NCBI GenBank assembly: GCA_018242565.1
Contig: JAFEBR010001015.1
Coordinates: forward strand, 1 to 36,849
DNA from: Planctomycetota bacterium
Lineage (GTDB): Bacteria > Planctomycetota > Planctomycetia > Planctomycetales > Planctomycetaceae
Length of the DNA stretch: 36,849 bases
Direction: 5' to 3'
This document shows positions 11,484-32,299 of the stretch, piece by piece. The translations under genes and the position numbers were made by a program. Numbering within the stretch: position 1 is the stretch's first letter; the number at the start of each line of letters is the position of its first letter. The notes beneath the pieces were generated by a model. It saw only the letters and a list, made by a program, of their open reading frames with translations. It had not been told where the DNA came from and made no database searches.

Positions 11484-11554
11484 ACTCCAACCAGTTTTCT
11501 ACGCACAGTCCAGGTACTTGCTCAAAGTCGGCTTGATTGGCAGACAACAGTCTG
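11484..11554 (-). pseudogene. Out-of-frame VapC C-terminus
   Basis: Removing one base from the C-run at 11555-11558 restores a normal VapC ending, with LLSANQADFEQVPGLC followed by VENWLE and TGA at 11484-11486. This contains the family's last conserved Asp (SANxxDF). The intact family-like codons on the far side show that the frameshift is recent or is a homopolymer sequencing error. Confidence 0.7.
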
Positions 11555-11911
11555 CCCCTGGTTTACTATCGCCGTTGCGGCGATTTTCAGGTCCCGTGAA
11601 CCGATCCGCAACTTCTGCGCACGAAGCACATCAAATTGTTGGGCGGCGGCCTCGTCAAACGGCAAAATCTCGAACTCGTTGTAGAATTCGAAAAGCGTGC
11701 CTAGCTCTCGATAGCCTACAGTCTGGCGAAGCACTGATTTTTCCCTGGCGATCACAGCGAGCCAGCCGCGCATCCGTTCTTCGACAGTGACAATACTCAC
11801 GCCGATCACTTCCGATTCCGGCAGCGCGTTAAGTCGACGAATCAGCCGACGACCGCGATCGCTTTCGGGATATTTAAGGAAGGTCACATGATCGGTGTCC
11901 AGAAGGATCAT
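11522..11911 (-). CDS. PIN-domain toxin (VapC type), frameshifted tail
   Basis: A 129-aa PIN ribonuclease of the VapC type: MILLDTDHVTFL at the start (first acidic residue), SIVTVEE around residue 40 and the SRDLKIAATAIV helix near 103-114. VapC toxins cleave specific RNAs and are blocked by the upstream antitoxin. The start overlaps the antitoxin stop in an ATGA (11908-11911). The last nine or so residues are abnormal. The family tail reads on in the other frame to 11484 (see the separate entry), which points to one extra G in the GGGG run at 11555-11558. The C-terminal conserved Asp region is lost, so activity is doubtful. Confidence 0.85.
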   Translation of the reverse strand: MILLDTDHVTFLKYPESDRGRRLIRRLNALPESEVIGVSIVTVEERMRGWLAVIAREKSVLRQTVGYRELGTLFEFYNEFEILPFDEAAAQQFDVLRAQKLRIGSRDLKIAATAIVNQGQTVVCQSSRL

Positions 11912-12120
11912 TCCGCCTGCTCTCCGCGGCGGGCGGCAGCACGTTCCGCCTTACGCGCTCGCAGGCATTCTTCGTCAACTTCCCGCATAAATTCGCTGTC
12001 ACCGAACATGCCGATGACTTTGCGCCAATCCTTGTGAGTGCGCCCCCGCTCCTGCTGGCGCACGGCAATTTCCAAATCCGTGACACGTTTCGCGAGGGAT
12101 TCCAAGGTCAATTCACTCAT
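11908..12120 (-). CDS. Antitoxin of VapBC-type module
   Basis: A 70-aa protein: an N-terminal helical segment (SLAKRVTDLEIAV, coiled-coil-like), a short middle (DWRKVIGMFGDSEFMREV) and a basic, Arg/Ala-rich C-terminus. The position directly upstream of the PIN toxin with a 4-base ATGA overlap is the standard antitoxin-toxin arrangement with coupled translation. No recognisable AbrB or ribbon-helix-helix motif is seen, so the DNA-binding fold is unassigned. Inference: it neutralises the PIN toxin and represses the operon. Confidence 0.75.
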   Translation of the reverse strand: MSELTLESLAKRVTDLEIAVRQQERGRTHKDWRKVIGMFGDSEFMREVDEECLRARKAERAAARRGEQAE

Positions 12121-13681: not shown

Positions 13682-14095
13682 TCAAACTGGATCCGCCCAG
13701 TTTTCAACTGCCAGTCCGGGGACGGCAGAGAGGTCGGTGTCCATGGTAACTACGGTCGCATTTCCAATGGTCGCCGCAATCGCCGCGATCCAGATGTCAT
13801 TCTGGCCAATCGGGCGGCCGCGTGATTTCAACGCGAATGCCAACCGTCCGTATTCGAACGCCGTTTGCGCGTCGACGAGCCATAGATTCCAGACATCCAT
13901 CGCTTGCCTGAGTCGCAGCAGGTTTTGCTCTCGTCGGGGGCTCCCCTCGGCACGAAACGCCAATTCTGCGAGCACCGGCGCAGCGATACCCACGCGATTG
14001 CCCTTGGCGACCTCGGCCTGGGCTCGCTCTAAGTCGCTTCGCTTACAGTCAAGATCCAATCCGGCGATTCCCGCGTCGAGAATGTATCGTGTCAC
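13682..14095 (-). CDS. PIN-domain toxin (VapC type)
   Basis: A 137-aa PIN ribonuclease. The acidic site is visible as YILDAG (first Asp), APVLAELAFRAEG (Glu), GQNDIWIAAIA (Asp) and TMDTDLSAVPGL (Asp), so unlike the other vapC here it looks intact. The start is the GTG at 14095, which overlaps the antitoxin stop as GTGA. The open frame extends upstream to 14161 but would run inside the antitoxin. The protein ends with the family-typical VENWADPV. It should cleave RNA when the antitoxin is degraded. R2 copy 2 lies just 3' of it. Confidence 0.88.
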   Translation of the reverse strand: MTRYILDAGIAGLDLDCKRSDLERAQAEVAKGNRVGIAAPVLAELAFRAEGSPRREQNLLRLRQAMDVWNLWLVDAQTAFEYGRLAFALKSRGRPIGQNDIWIAAIAATIGNATVVTMDTDLSAVPGLAVENWADPV

Positions 14096-14376
14096 GGAAA
14101 TGCGGTGTCCACGCTGGAATCGGAGTGGTGGATGCCGTGTTGATTTATTTTTTGTTCCCAAGCATCAAGGTCGGCTGCAATCTCGTCAGGAATCTCCAGC
14201 GGTTCGAGTTTTTGCATGGCCGCCAATACTCGAGCAATCTCCTCGGGTGGCATCGGTTCGCCTGGGTGGATCTCGCTGGCGTCGATGGTGACGGTCACTT
14301 CGACACCATCCGGAATGTCACTGGGAGCCGGGACGTCGATTCGCCGATTACGAATCGTGGTCTTGATGCTGGACAT
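14092..14376 (-). CDS. Antitoxin partner of the second VapC
   Basis: A 94-aa protein beginning MSSIKTTIRNRRIDV. The N-terminal half resembles small beta-barrel antitoxins (IPDGVEVTVTI). A Pro/Glu linker follows, then a helix (IPDEIAADLDAWEQKI) that would clamp the toxin. Three in-frame ATGs exist. The one at 14376 has GAGGA eight bases upstream and was chosen over 14382, which is too close to the ribosome site, and 14424. Its stop overlaps the toxin start. The two antitoxins in this window are not alike. Confidence 0.8.
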   Translation of the reverse strand: MSSIKTTIRNRRIDVPAPSDIPDGVEVTVTIDASEIHPGEPMPPEEIARVLAAMQKLEPLEIPDEIAADLDAWEQKINQHGIHHSDSSVDTAFP

Positions 14377-14457
14377 AACCATTTTCCTCGCGAAAAATCC
14401 GCTGACCTTGCCCGTGCTACCCATTGATTTTAGCTGCTGGAGGAAACAAAGTGCCAG

Positions 14458-27282: not shown

Positions 27283-27443
27283 TGGCAGAGCCCTCGGAAG
27301 CCACGTTGCGGAAGCTGGCGATCGCCACACGACAGGCGGATTGTAGCCAGCCGGGTTTCCACGTCGCAACCGGACGCAAAAACACAACATCCTGTGGTTC
27401 CGGCGAAATGCAAGACCGAGATTCCACAAAATGAAGATTTTGT

Positions 27444-27473
27444 TTGACAACTGCGGCGCGCGGTGCTTATGAT
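27444..27473 (+). promoter_or_regulatory. Strong sigma70-type promoter
   Basis: A perfect -35 box TTGACA at 27444-27449 and -10 TATGAT at 27468-27473 with an 18-base spacer. Transcription should start near 27480, leaving about 210 bases before the leader ORF and about 455 before the GATase-like start. It is the best promoter match in the window. Confidence 0.75.
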
Positions 27474-27507
27474 CCGCGGCGTTGCTGGTGACGAATTGAA
27501 TTCTCAA

Positions 27508-27664
27508 AACGTTGCCAGTCGTTGTGAGGCATCTCCGTCTGGTGTGGGATTGGAACCTGCCCTGCGGAGCGGACCGAGGGATCGGCCCGAAACGGATGTG
27601 TTCGAGAGGTCTTAGACCTGTTGAATGGCATCCACATGAACGTCTGAAAGTGATTGGCAACGTT
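27508..27664 (+). ncRNA. Candidate structured 5' leader RNA
   Basis: AACGTTGCCA at 27508-27517 pairs perfectly with TGGCAACGTT at 27655-27664. The stem can continue inward by about six more pairs including G-U, closing a domain of about 157 bases. Inside, CATC..CCGT (near 27530) can pair with ACGGATG (near 27594), and AGGTCTTAGACCT (27607-27619) is a small hairpin. The ribosome site AAGGAGG (27675-27681) begins about 10 bases after the closing stem. This is the layout of a translational riboswitch or autoregulatory leader, but no known class is recognised. Confidence 0.45.
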
Positions 27665-27689
27665 CGTAGCGTTCAAGGAGGAACGAAAC

Positions 27690-27971
27690 ATGCTTCAGTC
27701 TTCAGCTCATCGGAGTGCGGCCGACTGGTCAGCCACCGATGTCGCCACTGAGCAGCCGGCTCGTTCTTATTCCCGCCGCCGCCAGTCATCGCGCCCCACC
27801 GTTCTGGTGGTGCATTCTCGATCCCACGCCATCCGCTTTCGCATCGTTACGGCTCCCGCGTCCCCACTCCCGGCGGACATGCCCGTTTCGTTTCCTTTAC
27901 CCGGGCACAGGATGTGCCAGAAAGCGATGGATTGCTATGTCGACGAAACCTCTGATCGGAATCAACGGTGA
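27690..27971 (+). CDS. 93-codon leader ORF
   Basis: An ATG eight bases after a near-ideal AAGGAGG opens a 93-aa ORF rich in Ser, Arg and Pro (SYSRRRQSSRPTVLVVHSR in the middle). It has no domain, signal peptide or membrane segment. It ends 35 bases inside the GATase-like gene in another frame. The far stronger ribosome site here than at the downstream gene suggests it is translated and may couple or regulate the next gene. Whether the peptide itself matters is unknown. Confidence 0.5.
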   Translation: MLQSSAHRSAADWSATDVATEQPARSYSRRRQSSRPTVLVVHSRSHAIRFRIVTAPASPLPADMPVSFPLPGHRMCQKAMDCYVDETSDRNQR

Positions 27972-28734
27972 CTTTCGGGCGGCCCGCAAGGATGCGACGG
28001 CTCTGAGCTGGTTCAACGCGGGTTATTACGACTCGATTTCCGCCGCCAAATACAAAACCGGTCCCAAAGAAACCGACGTCACGAACGCCATTCCCGTACT
28101 GATTCCGCCGCTGGCGGACGACGCGGAATTGAAGCAGATGTTGAGCATGCTCGACGGGCTGGTGCTCGCCGGCTGCACTCAGGATCTCGAACCGGTCCGA
28201 CTGGGGATGGAACGCCATCCTTCAACCCGCCCGATGCCGGCCCGCCGTGAAGACTTCGACCGCCGTCTGTGCAAAATGGCCGTCGAACTCAAGATGCCGA
28301 TTCTGGCCATCGGTGGGGGGATGCAACTGCTCAACGTGATCTGCGGCGGTTCGATCTACCAGCACATTCCTGAAGACTGTCCCCGCGCCCTGCATCACAG
28401 CGACCCCGTCGAATCGACGCTGCGGCACGTGATTGAAATCGTTCCGGGCACTCGGGTGGACAAAATCTACGGTCCTGGCGAAATTCGCGTCAACAGTTCG
28501 CACCACCAGGCGATCAATCTCGTGGCCCGTGGCTTCCGCATCTCGGCGACCGCTCCCGATGGAGTGATTGAAGCCATCGAATCGGAAGATCCCGACTGGT
28601 TCGCTTTGGGGGTCCAATGGCACCCGGAAAGCGATTCGGCCAGCGCCCTCGACATGCAGGTCTTCGAACAGTTCCTGTCGGCCGTTGTCGGTCAGAAAGA
28701 GCCGGTCATCCTGCCGATGCGCAAAGTCGCTTAG
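27937..28734 (+). CDS. Class I GATase-like protein (C26 family) lacking the catalytic Cys
   Basis: A 265-aa protein resembling gamma-glutamyl-GABA hydrolase/PuuD (peptidase C26): the start KPLIGINGDFR, the loop DGLVLAGCTQDLEP, the nucleophile elbow ILAIGGGMQLLNV and the His-Glu end GVQWHPES (His229, Glu231). In active members the elbow reads like G-I-C-R-G-M-Q; here the Cys position is Gly126, so glutaminase activity by the known mechanism is not expected. The NSSHHQAI segment is kept, so substrate binding may persist. The start at 27937 overlaps the leader ORF, and its own ribosome site is weak. A convergent terminator follows. Confidence 0.82.
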   Translation: MSTKPLIGINGDFRAARKDATALSWFNAGYYDSISAAKYKTGPKETDVTNAIPVLIPPLADDAELKQMLSMLDGLVLAGCTQDLEPVRLGMERHPSTRPMPARREDFDRRLCKMAVELKMPILAIGGGMQLLNVICGGSIYQHIPEDCPRALHHSDPVESTLRHVIEIVPGTRVDKIYGPGEIRVNSSHHQAINLVARGFRISATAPDGVIEAIESEDPDWFALGVQWHPESDSASALDMQVFEQFLSAVVGQKEPVILPMRKVA

Positions 28735-28818: not shown

Positions 28819-29550
28819 TCAGTCGAGCGCCAGAATGCGGGCCACGCCCGCACTGGCAGGCTGCGTGAACACCTCGGCCACCGGTCCGTGCTGCAGCATG
28901 CGGCCCTCATTCAAGACCACGACCGCATCGGCGAGCGCTTGAACTTCCCCCGGATCGTGCGTCACGACGATCGTGGGAATGCCCCAGGTGGCCAGCAGTT
29001 GACGCAACTCAGCGCGCAGTTCGCGACGTGTCGGTACATCGAGCGCCGACAGCGGTTCATCCAGCAACAACAGCCGAGGTCGGATGGCGACTGTCCGCGC
29101 CAAAGCCACCCGCTGTTGCTGTCCCCCGGAAATCTGGTGGGGATAGCGCGACTCCAACCCCTGCAGTTGCAACAGTGCCAGCAGGTCGGAGACTCGCGAC
29201 TGCCTCTCAGCACGCGGCAAACCCCGGCAACCAAACGCGACGTTCTCAGCCAGCGTCAGGTGTGGAAACAACGCGTATTCCTGCACGAGGTAACCCACAC
29301 GCCGTTGCTGCGGAGTGAGATTCACGTGGCGATTCTGGTCAAACCACAACTCGGTCCCGCAGGTGATCTGCCCCCGATCGGGCCGATCGAGGCCCGCCAG
29401 ACAGCGCAGAATGGTTGTCTTGCCGCAGCCTGACGGACCGACCAGCGCCGTCACGGAAAACGCATCGCCCGAGACCTGCAGGTTGGCCTGAATCGCCGGG
29501 CCCTGGGAAAACCGGCGTTCGAATTCGGCTGACAGGAACAAACGGGTCAT
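28819..29550 (-). CDS. modC: Molybdate ABC transporter ATP-binding protein
   Basis: A 243-aa ATPase. Walker A is GPSGCGKTT (about 38-46), Q-loop LVQEYALFP, signature ISGGQQQR, Walker [13 protein letters not shown] and H-loop VTHDP. It powers uptake of molybdate/tungstate from the periplasm through ModB. The C-terminal MOP/TOBE domain that binds molybdate in classical ModC is missing (length 243 versus about 350), so Mo sensing must lie elsewhere. Its ATG overlaps the modB stop by four bases. It is the last gene of the operon and ends at the hairpin at 28763-28785. Confidence 0.9.
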
Positions 29551-30209
29551 GATCGTTGCAGGAACTGGGCCAGCGACAGGGCCATGAACGCGAAGACCAG
29601 GACGACCGCCGCGCTCTGTCCGGCCGCGGCGTAATTGAGCACATTGACATCTTCGTAAATGGCAATCGACAGGGTTTTCGTCACGCCGGGGATGTTCCCA
29701 CCCACCATTAGCACGACCCCGAATTCACCGACGGCATGGGCAAAAACCAGCACGAGGCCGGCCAGCAGGCCTTTCCAGGCCAGGGGCAGCGTCACTCGTC
29801 GAAACGTCGCCAGGCGCGAGACCCCCAGGCACCACGAGGCTTCGATCAGACGCTGGTCAACGGCCGCCAGCGCGGCGGCGAAAGGACGCACCGCGAAGGG
29901 AAGATTATAGAGCACCGATGCCAGCACGATGCCCTGAAACGTGAACGGAATGCGGGAGTGAAACAACTGCTCGTACCAATGTCCCAGCACCGATTTCGGA
30001 CCCGTGGCCCACAAGATATAGAATCCCAGCACCGTCGGAGGTAAGACGAGGGGCAGTGCCACGAGAACTTCGACCACGAATTTCCAGCGGACGCGGGTCC
30101 GTGCCAGCCAGGCCGCGAGCGGCAGGCCCAGGAGAAACAGAATCCCAGTCGTGCAGGTGGCGACCGCCAGGGTCAGACGAATCGCAGTCCAGTCGAGTTG
30201 CCAGTTCAT
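29547..30209 (-). CDS. modB: Molybdate ABC transporter permease
   Basis: A 220-aa inner-membrane protein with five to six membrane segments (first at about 10-33). The cytoplasmic coupling motif EASWCLGVSRLATFRRVTLP contacts the ATPase. LLAGLVLVFAHAVGEFGVVLMVGGNIPG, split here by the next helix, is typical of ModB. It forms the channel of the ModABC importer. The length matches the family. It lies about 70 bp downstream of modA. Confidence 0.92.
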   Translation of the reverse strand: MNWQLDWTAIRLTLAVATCTTGILFLLGLPLAAWLARTRVRWKFVVEVLVALPLVLPPTVLGFYILWATGPKSVLGHWYEQLFHSRIPFTFQGIVLASVLYNLPFAVRPFAAALAAVDQRLIEASWCLGVSRLATFRRVTLPLAWKGLLAGLVLVFAHAVGEFGVVLMVGGNIPGVTKTLSIAIYEDVNVLNYAAAGQSAAVVLVFAFMALSLAQFLQRS

Positions 30210-30280
30210 GAATTGTGCGGCCGCTTATGATCCGGTTTTCAAGGGGGGCAGTCATCCTGCGGTCGGGGAGCGGCGGACAT

Positions 30281-31195
30281 TCAGTGCGGTGGGTCGAATC
30301 CAAAGTCCGCCAGGTGGGTGGCTCCCGGCCCGTTGATCAGGAATTCGCGAAAGTCCTCTGCCAGGGCCCGATCCTCGGCCCACGAGAGAATGACCCCTCC
30401 TTGAATCAACGGCTGGTACGAATCCGATGGAAACGGCCAGAAGTGCCCGCGGTCACGCAACGCGGGCGACAGCGCCAAGGACAGTGCGATGATCCCCACA
30501 TCCGCCGCACCGGATTCCACCATCTGGGCGGTCTGGGCCACCGATTCGCCATACACGAGTTTCGGCTCGAGCGCTTCATACAACCACAAAGTCCGCAGCG
30601 CTTCAATCGCGGCCCGCCCGTAGGGTGCCGTTTTCGGATTGGCGACCGCGATGGTTTTCACGTTCCCTTCGCGTAACTGGTCGGGATGCAGTTTGGCGCC
30701 GTCAGCGCGAACTGCGCCGGGCTTCCAGAGCACGATATGACCTCGGGCATACGGAAAGGCCCCGGCGGAAAAGCCGTGTCCAACCTGAGCCAGGTTATTC
30801 GCGTATTCAATGTCGGCTGACAAAAACAGATCGAACGGTGCCTCGTGCGACAACTGACTGAACAACTGCCCCGAGGACCCGACCGTGACGCTGACCTGGG
30901 CACCCGGATGCGCCTGTTCAAACTCCGCCACAATCTTGGCCAGCGCAAACTTCAGATCGGATGCCGCCGCGATTCGCAATTTGCCCGAGGCCGCGGGCCG
31001 CAAGGCGGGATCCGGTGCAGTGGCGGGCCCCGATTCAGTAGAGTCCGAAGAACCGCTCGTGGCGGTGACCTCTGGCGCGGGCTGACTGCATCCTGCCACG
31101 ATTCCCAATAACAACACGAGCCACGCCGCGCGGGGATACCAGGTCCGTGTCGCGTTCAGACCGGTGTGCGATCGGATTGTCGGGAGAAATTTCAT
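30281..31195 (-). CDS. modA: Molybdate-binding lipoprotein
   Basis: A 304-aa periplasmic binding protein with a lipoprotein signal (lipobox VAGC at about residues 33-36). A Ser/Thr/Pro-rich linker follows, then the ModA fold: LRIAAASDLKFALAKI, VTVGSSGQLFSQ, LFLSADIEYA, the PKTAPYGRAAIE region and SGAADVGIIALS. ModA captures molybdate or tungstate and hands it to ModB. The mature domain is of usual size. It lies 39 bp after the regulator gene and before modB on the same strand. Confidence 0.9.
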   Translation of the reverse strand: MKFLPTIRSHTGLNATRTWYPRAAWLVLLLGIVAGCSQPAPEVTATSGSSDSTESGPATAPDPALRPAASGKLRIAAASDLKFALAKIVAEFEQAHPGAQVSVTVGSSGQLFSQLSHEAPFDLFLSADIEYANNLAQVGHGFSAGAFPYARGHIVLWKPGAVRADGAKLHPDQLREGNVKTIAVANPKTAPYGRAAIEALRTLWLYEALEPKLVYGESVAQTAQMVESGAADVGIIALSLALSPALRDRGHFWPFPSDSYQPLIQGGVILSWAEDRALAEDFREFLINGPGATHLADFGFDPPH

Positions 31196-31234
31196 GGCAA
31201 ATAGGCCTTGGCGCCTCGGGCGAGAGGTTGGTCG

Positions 31235-32299
31235 TCAGCGGATGAGTTCCATCTGTCCGGATTCGCGTGTGTCGTAACCGGGCAATTCGCCCAGAAGTTG
31301 CCGATACGGTTCGGACCGGACGGCCTCGATTAATGCTTTGATCCGCGGATCGTCGGCCGTGGCTGTCGGAAAACAGATGTCGTACGTTTCATCGCGTACG
31401 CTCAGGAATTCGAGCCCGGCCTCTTCACTGACCAGGCGCACGCAGACCCCGACGTCGGCCCAGCCGCTGCGAATGGCTTCCACAACTCCGCGATGATCGC
31501 GGGCCAGGCGGCGCGGCGGTTCGCGAGTATCGAAGAGTTCCGCCATGCATTGCGCGGCACCGGAACCGGGCTCCCGCCCGACCCACCGCAGTTTCTTGTG
31601 ACGCAGCACGCTGTCTACTGAATGGAGATCGGTCCCTCGCGCCAGGGCGAGGCCTTCCTGCCAGCGGGCAACCCGCAGCAGTGTGAAACCACCCCCGAGC
31701 TGTTTTTTGACCGCGGGTACGTTGCCCTGCTTGCTGCCCGCCTTGGCGAGATGCACGCCCGCGGCATGAACCAGTTTCTGTCCTAATAACTGCAACGCCA
31801 GCGAGCTGGAACGCGAGATGGTCAGTAACCGGAACGAAGTCGTGCGGGCCAGTTCGGCGGCCAGCAGCGCGGCGGCCGGGTCGCACGAGGCCAGCACCAG
31901 CGTTTGTTCCGGCAGGTTCTGACTGCGGGGCTCGTACACGCCATGCGCAAAAATGCCATCGTGACCAATGACCCCCAGTCCATTCGACTCGACCGGGTAG
32001 AGCAGAACCTCGCCATCGATCTCGGCATGCCAATACCGGCAGGGCTCGGCAGGGGCTGGCCACGCCCAGCGAACCTGGGGACCGGCTGATCCGGTCAGTG
32101 CAAAAATGGCATCGACCCGGCAACCAAACGCCTCGGCCAGCGACAGGGCGGCCGCCACTGAAGGCACCAGGCGTTCGATTTCAATGGCGCTGACCGCGGC
32201 CCGTGAAATGCCCGCGCGGCGGGCCAGCTCGGCCTGTGACCAGCCTCGGGCCATCCGCAGCATTTTCACGTTGTTCCGCAAGTTCGCCGCCTGTGACAT
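31235..32299 (-). CDS. HTH/PBP-like one-component regulator of the mod operon
   Basis: A 354-aa protein. An N-terminal XRE-type helix-turn-helix (about 12-65, with GWSQAELARRAGISRAAVSA) is followed by a periplasmic-binding-protein-like ligand domain (about 95-345) of the type found in HTH-PBP fusions near molybdenum genes. This domain has ASCDPAAALLAAEL, TISRSSSLALQLL, VGREPGSGA and SGWADVGVCVRL. It starts the operon regulator-modA-modB-modC (39-bp, 71-bp and overlapping junctions). No ModE-type LysR HTH or MOP domain occurs, so it probably senses molybdate or a pterin-related ligand instead. An inverted repeat covers its start codon. Confidence 0.85.
   Translation of the reverse strand: MSQAANLRNNVKMLRMARGWSQAELARRAGISRAAVSAIEIERLVPSVAAALSLAEAFGCRVDAIFALTGSAGPQVRWAWPAPAEPCRYWHAEIDGEVLLYPVESNGLGVIGHDGIFAHGVYEPRSQNLPEQTLVLASCDPAAALLAAELARTTSFRLLTISRSSSLALQLLGQKLVHAAGVHLAKAGSKQGNVPAVKKQLGGGFTLLRVARWQEGLALARGTDLHSVDSVLRHKKLRWVGREPGSGAAQCMAELFDTREPPRRLARDHRGVVEAIRSGWADVGVCVRLVSEEAGLEFLSVRDETYDICFPTATADDPRIKALIEAVRSEPYRQLLGELPGYDTRESGQMELIR

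Follow-up and report, generated by a model that had tools for sequence, protein, structure and literature searches.

A probable CsrA-controlled 5' leader upstream of a class-wide, PuuD-like predicted pseudoenzyme in Planctomycetia

The window is the whole stretch of planctomycete DNA analysed here, 36.8 kb from a host genome (G000) whose assembly is 9.3 Mb. For positions 27444-27971, the original prediction named a strong promoter, a structured leader, and a leader ORF ahead of an enzyme-like gene. The promoter is present as TTGACA (27444-27449) and TATGAT (27468-27473) separated by an 18-nt spacer, with 11 of 12 consensus matches, and the leader ORF is found as 93 codons running from an ATG at 27690 to a TGA at 27971. 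The features of this region are:

27382-27397, no strand assigned: box 1, a palindromic, operator-like and NrdR-box-like element with the core CACAACATCCTGTG at 27383-27396 (family consensus CCACAASATSTWGTGG)
27425-27433, plus strand: box 2, CACAAAATG (family consensus CACAAAATC), 10 nt before the -35 element
27444-27473, plus strand: sigma-70-type promoter, TTGACA-18-TATGAT, at a position conserved across the family
27484-27519, plus strand: local hairpin of the MFE structure, competing with the 10-bp stem
27508-27664, plus strand: 10-bp stem and the region it encloses, not conserved
27574-27585, plus strand: GGA hairpin 1, ccga-GGGA-ucgg, with outer pairs that extend it; the same element is found in relatives G001 and G057
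27670-27685, plus strand: GGA hairpin 2, cguuc-AAGGAG-gaacg, carrying the Shine-Dalgarno sequence (SD) of the leader ORF (AAGGAGG) in its loop; weak in the 511-nt fold
27690-27971, plus strand: leader ORF, overlapping the next gene (ATG at 27937) by 35 nt in another frame
27904-27918, plus strand: GGA hairpin 3, ggcaca-GGA-ugugcc (GGCACAGGAUGUGCC), containing CAGGAUG, the CsrB repeat, exactly
27923-27936, plus strand: GGA hairpin 4, agcga-UGGA-uugcu, at the ribosome-binding site (RBS) of the downstream gene
27937-28734, plus strand: gene for a peptidase C26/class I glutamine amidotransferase-like protein of 265 aa in which Gly replaces the catalytic Cys

Beyond this gene, at 28819-32299 on the minus strand, are convergent ABC transporter genes (ATPase, permease and SBP_bac_11 binding protein) and a gene for a regulator with an HTH plus a PBP-like part, together looking like a molybdate/tungstate uptake cluster. 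Elsewhere in the window, two proteins with PIN-domain matches are encoded on the minus strand (11522-12120 and 13682-14424), and a small ORF immediately precedes each of them. These are likely VapBC-type toxin-antitoxin pairs, with the small ORFs as putative partners.

Active C26/class I glutamine amidotransferases use a Cys-His-Glu triad in which Cys is the nucleophile. The protein encoded downstream of the leader matched Pfam C26 (1.5e-56), and its AlphaFold2 model (pLDDT 85.5) matched SpuA, PuuD and Lin1909 in Foldseek (E of 1e-21, 5e-21 and 1e-19), so that a C26/class I amidotransferase fold is predicted. Of the 120 host-family genomes, 112 gave a match to the protein (92 of the 94 good ones), as did all 136 good genomes of the class; homologues outside the class were weaker and mostly partial. 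Among 149 orthologues from the class Planctomycetia, 147 have Gly and 2 have Ala at the catalytic Cys position. The His is kept in all 149 and the Glu in most, and the window protein has both. Homologues from other phyla retain the Cys (in ICRG, ICYG or VCRG). Because the catalytic Cys is replaced in all orthologues, the standard thiol mechanism is impossible. We predict from the alignment that this protein is a class-wide conserved pseudoenzyme; a regulatory role for it would be a guess. The downstream gene had been singled out as unusual, and rightly so.

To compare leaders, we used upstream regions of up to 900 nt before the gene, 109 from the host family and 40 from other families of the class. 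Most of the 109 family genomes have a conserved box 1 ahead of the gene. In the aligned upstream regions of the family, the -35 element lies ten bases after box 2 and the promoter spacer is 17 nt in most. The distance between the two boxes, measured from CAC to CAC, is 42 bp in the window. It falls into two classes one helical turn apart, 31-32 bp (45 of 89 genomes) and 42-43 bp (34 of 89). Measured from box 1's first C, these become 32-33 and 43-44 bp. The combination of box 2 and -35 element occurs once in the host genome. A search of that genome for the exact box 1 pattern, allowing no mismatch, gave no match because the window's own box 1 has one mismatch. The pattern was also searched in eight relatives, where it led to the promoter upstream of a ribonucleotide reductase (RNR) gene in G029. 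The RNR promoters of G029, G042 and G047 (ATP-cone RNR genes L202, L203 and L204) carry an NrdR-like box resembling box 1, followed 31 bp on by a second, weaker box in G042 and G047 and by a poorer match in G029. At the pseudoenzyme promoters, box pairs of the shorter spacing class are the same distance apart, and this distance agrees with the helix-phase spacing rule for NrdR box pairs (PMC12051234). NrdR is encoded in the host genome. Compared with the expected arrangement of two 16-bp palindromes with a spacer of 15-16 or about 25-26 bp, box 1 and the spacing fit and box 2 fits in its left half only. Box 1 may be an NrdR operator, an assignment that is tentative because of this half match of box 2.

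Control of ribosome access had been attributed to a perfect 10-bp stem closing a domain of about 157 bases. The arms are present, AACGTTGCCA at 27508-27517 and TGGCAACGTT at 27655-27664, and are fully complementary, and AAGGAGG follows shortly 3' of them (27675-27681) as described. If the stem formed, the 157-nt domain could be a riboswitch- or thermosensor-like switch acting on access to AAGGAGG. The stem is exact, mononucleotide shuffling of the 227-nt segment produced such a repeat in 0.2% of cases, and the leader as a whole is more stable than its dinucleotide shuffles (z -3.9). The same kind of repeat at that spacing is found 57 times in the window. Against such a switch, the pairing probability of the stem was 0.008 when 221 nt were folded and 0.12 when 511 nt were folded; in the MFE structure its 5' arm is taken by the local hairpin at 27484-27519. 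The original prediction had set conservation of the stem in homologues as its check, and none of five relatives (G001, G057, G046, G078 and G098) has an equivalent: their longest long-range Watson-Crick stems are 6-9 bp and lie elsewhere. No Rfam family, riboswitch or sRNA, reached threshold when the covariance models were run against the leader, in line with the statement that no known riboswitch class is recognisable. We rejected the long-range stem as a switch on its absence from the five relatives and its low pairing probability, and a known riboswitch or sRNA family on the lack of an Rfam match; a switch of this type is scarcely credible. What the leaders share in place of the unconserved stem is a set of GGA-loop hairpins, conserved with compensating changes in their stems and including one at the gene's own RBS. 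With these hairpins substituted for the stem, the idea holds that a strong promoter feeds a structured leader which regulates the access of ribosomes.

The window contains four well-formed GGA sites. In local folds, hairpins 1-3 had stem probabilities near 1 with their GGAs open, and about half of the ensemble contained the RBS hairpin. When 511 nt were folded, hairpin 2 was displaced (pairing probability 0.01) and hairpin 1 had a probability of 0.2. For E. coli CsrA, the SELEX consensus reads RUACARGGAUGU, its GGA lying in the loop of a hairpin; the repeats of CsrB are CAGGA(U/A/C)G, and RsmE prefers ANGGAN loops (PMC7652899). Hairpin 3 has the ACA and GGAUGU of the SELEX consensus without the purine between them. 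Its GGA is 19 nt from that of the RBS hairpin; for bridging by a CsrA dimer, sites may be separated by 10-63 nt, with an optimum over 18 (PMC7652899). The window has the arrangement expected of a CsrA-controlled leader, a site on or near the SD with a second within 10-63 nt, and so does a large part, not all, of its relatives.

Counts of GGA-in-loop hairpins per leader averaged 3.31 in 108 family leaders and 2.50 in 40 leaders from other families, compared with 0.86 in a control set of 99 intergenic leaders taken from 20 genome stretches of the host family (p 2e-27 and 2e-10, respectively). In a shuffle test, GGA was enriched 2.9-fold in hairpin loops and the overlapping AGG 3.0-fold, both at the top of the triplets; the opposite strand of the leaders showed no GGA-loop enrichment. 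Covariation was assessed by keeping the 5' flank of each GGA site and swapping the 3' flanks among genomes, with one genome per genus (55 genera) and with the related sequences not being independent. The native leaders formed 178 hairpins versus 54.5 +/- 6.9 after swapping (z 17.9), and those of other families of the class formed 96 versus 32.4 +/- 5.4. The stems vary between genera, yet pair within each genome. GGA ranked first of the 64 triplets in this test (z 18.3), and the control leaders gave z 1.9. The loops have the consensus A-N-GGA-U, with A at -2 in 65% of hairpin GGAs versus 37% of other GGAs. By its sequence, this is the CsrA recognition element, as in known CsrA/RsmE sites (PMC7652899).

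The GGA of the RBS is itself part of a hairpin loop in 60% of family genes (65 of 108) and 56% of genes from other families (22 of 39), compared with 22% of control genes (18 of 80); about 40% of RBS GGAs score too low to count as hairpins. The stems of these RBS hairpins can be quite different, as in gcac-AAGGAA-gugc, uucgaa-AGGA-uucgaa and gaaauc-AGGAAAG-gauuuc. In 74 of 149 leaders another GGA hairpin lies no more than 120 nt before the RBS GGA, with a distance peak at 18-26 nt; about half of the 149 have no scored hairpin in those 120 nt. An early search pattern for this proximal hairpin, GCACANGGANGTGC, had one base too many, missed the window's site and was set aside. Loops holding the RBS GGA could also mean that the hairpins do no more than present the SD to the ribosome, with no protein partner involved. 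Most of the maintained hairpins lie far from the RBS, however, and control genes are without such hairpins, making this explanation very hard to sustain.

Matches to csrA were found in 120 of 120 family genomes, at 3 to 17 per genome. The host genome has ten paralogues (L176-L185), of which L176 and L177 are the two canonical ones; the expansion is unusual. All ten proteins start with MLVL(S/T)R (L4) and have an arginine at the R44 position, with residues read by eye. CsrA fits as the protein partner much better than any other known candidate. Binding by one or another of the ten paralogues is predicted from the sites. In the mechanism we propose, transcription would start near 27480 from the conserved sigma-70 promoter with its two phased operator-like boxes, and the leader RNA would fold into several short hairpins whose loops carry A(N)GGA. 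A CsrA dimer would probably hold the strong site GGCACAGGAUGUGCC at 27904-27918 and bridge to the GGA of the RBS hairpin at 27923-27936, thereby blocking 30S binding. In the host genus, a second site at 27670-27685 would cover the SD of the leader ORF.

This ORF overlaps the start of the gene, and repression could therefore also act by translational coupling; the SD in hairpin 2 and the 35-nt overlap at the end of the ORF would allow it as in E. coli iraD (PMC5574718). Comparison of the host with its sister species G001 gave a dN/dS of 0.32 over 63 codons and 0.18 in the second half, with other frames worse, and there is weak similarity in G057. No homologues of the peptide were found among the relatives beyond the nearest genera. 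We treated the ORF as a lineage-specific addition and rejected it as the conserved element. The coding constraint and the overlap with the gene start would suit attenuation or coupling through translation of the ORF with no part for CsrA. Such control is very improbable given that the peptide is confined to the nearest genera and the GGA hairpins are class-wide.

A further possibility is that the leader RNA is mainly a CsrA sponge, either CsrB-like or a titrating mRNA leader, with the gene as a secondary target. The strong conserved promoter would be consistent with this, as would the maintenance of CsrA-type hairpins far upstream of the RBS (154 non-RBS hairpins in native leaders versus 48.5 after swapping). 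However, each leader has three to five sites versus 22 GGA motifs in CsrB (PMC7652899), and the looped position of the RBS GGA itself in about 60% of genomes suggests that the gene is what is controlled. We consider a sponge unlikely as the main function.

CsrA sometimes activates its targets. We infer direct CsrA binding, repression rather than activation, coupling, and a signal that relieves the repression. Promoter conservation, GGA-hairpin enrichment, pairing within each genome, placement on the RBS and the presence of csrA genes are observed in the data. Two things are conserved in the 109 family leaders and the 40 from other families of the class: the promoter, whose two operator-like boxes keep a fixed helical phase, and the GGA-loop hairpins. 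We conclude, with a probability of roughly 80%, that this segment is a CsrA-controlled 5' leader of about 460 nt governing translation of the class-wide PuuD-like pseudoenzyme. The original prediction regarded the locus as a candidate for undescribed regulation. CsrA-type GGA hairpins make it a known kind of regulation instead; the instance, the depth of its conservation and its combination with promoter boxes and a pseudoenzyme appear undescribed in the literature searched. We found no CsrA target described in planctomycetes in the open-access literature searched. The leader offers a conserved, concrete target for testing CsrA function and the division of labour among the planctomycete paralogues, and it points to a class-wide pseudoenzyme whose regulation was kept and catalytic residue lost. 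It is possible, although we hold it doubtful, that control has two layers, with NrdR (dATP/ATP) acting on transcription and one of the many CsrA paralogues on translation, so that a dead amidotransferase would link nucleotide state with the expanded CsrA network; the leader might then also titrate CsrA.

The locus can be compared with several known systems. The protein is like the peptidase C26 gamma-glutamyl hydrolases PuuD, SpuA and Lin1909 in sequence and fold and differs from them in having Gly (147) or Ala (2) for the catalytic Cys in the 149 orthologues. Box 1 fits the palindrome of the NrdR box pairs at RNR promoters, with spacings of 31-32 or 42-43 bp; unlike those pairs, box 2 keeps the left half only and the gene is not a ribonucleotide reductase. 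The sponge RNAs CsrB/CsrC and RsmX/Y/Z also have repeated hairpins with A(N)GGA loops, whereas the sites here are fewer, are part of an mRNA leader and have no Rfam match. In the E. coli iraD leader, as here, a CsrA-type site covers the SD of a short ORF (ORF27) that precedes the main gene and, at its end, overlaps the start of that gene. By contrast, iraD is without a CsrA site near the main SD and one is present in our leader (PMC5574718); the ORF here is also longer (93 codons) and lineage-specific. Compared with the E. coli glgC leader, this leader belongs to an unrelated gene in another phylum, is longer, has more sites and operator-like promoter boxes, often has the RBS GGA in a hairpin as well, and occurs with ten CsrA paralogues. 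In glgC too, a GGA hairpin, there of high affinity, lies shortly before a second site at the SD, with a spacing suited to bridging by a CsrA dimer (PMC7652899).
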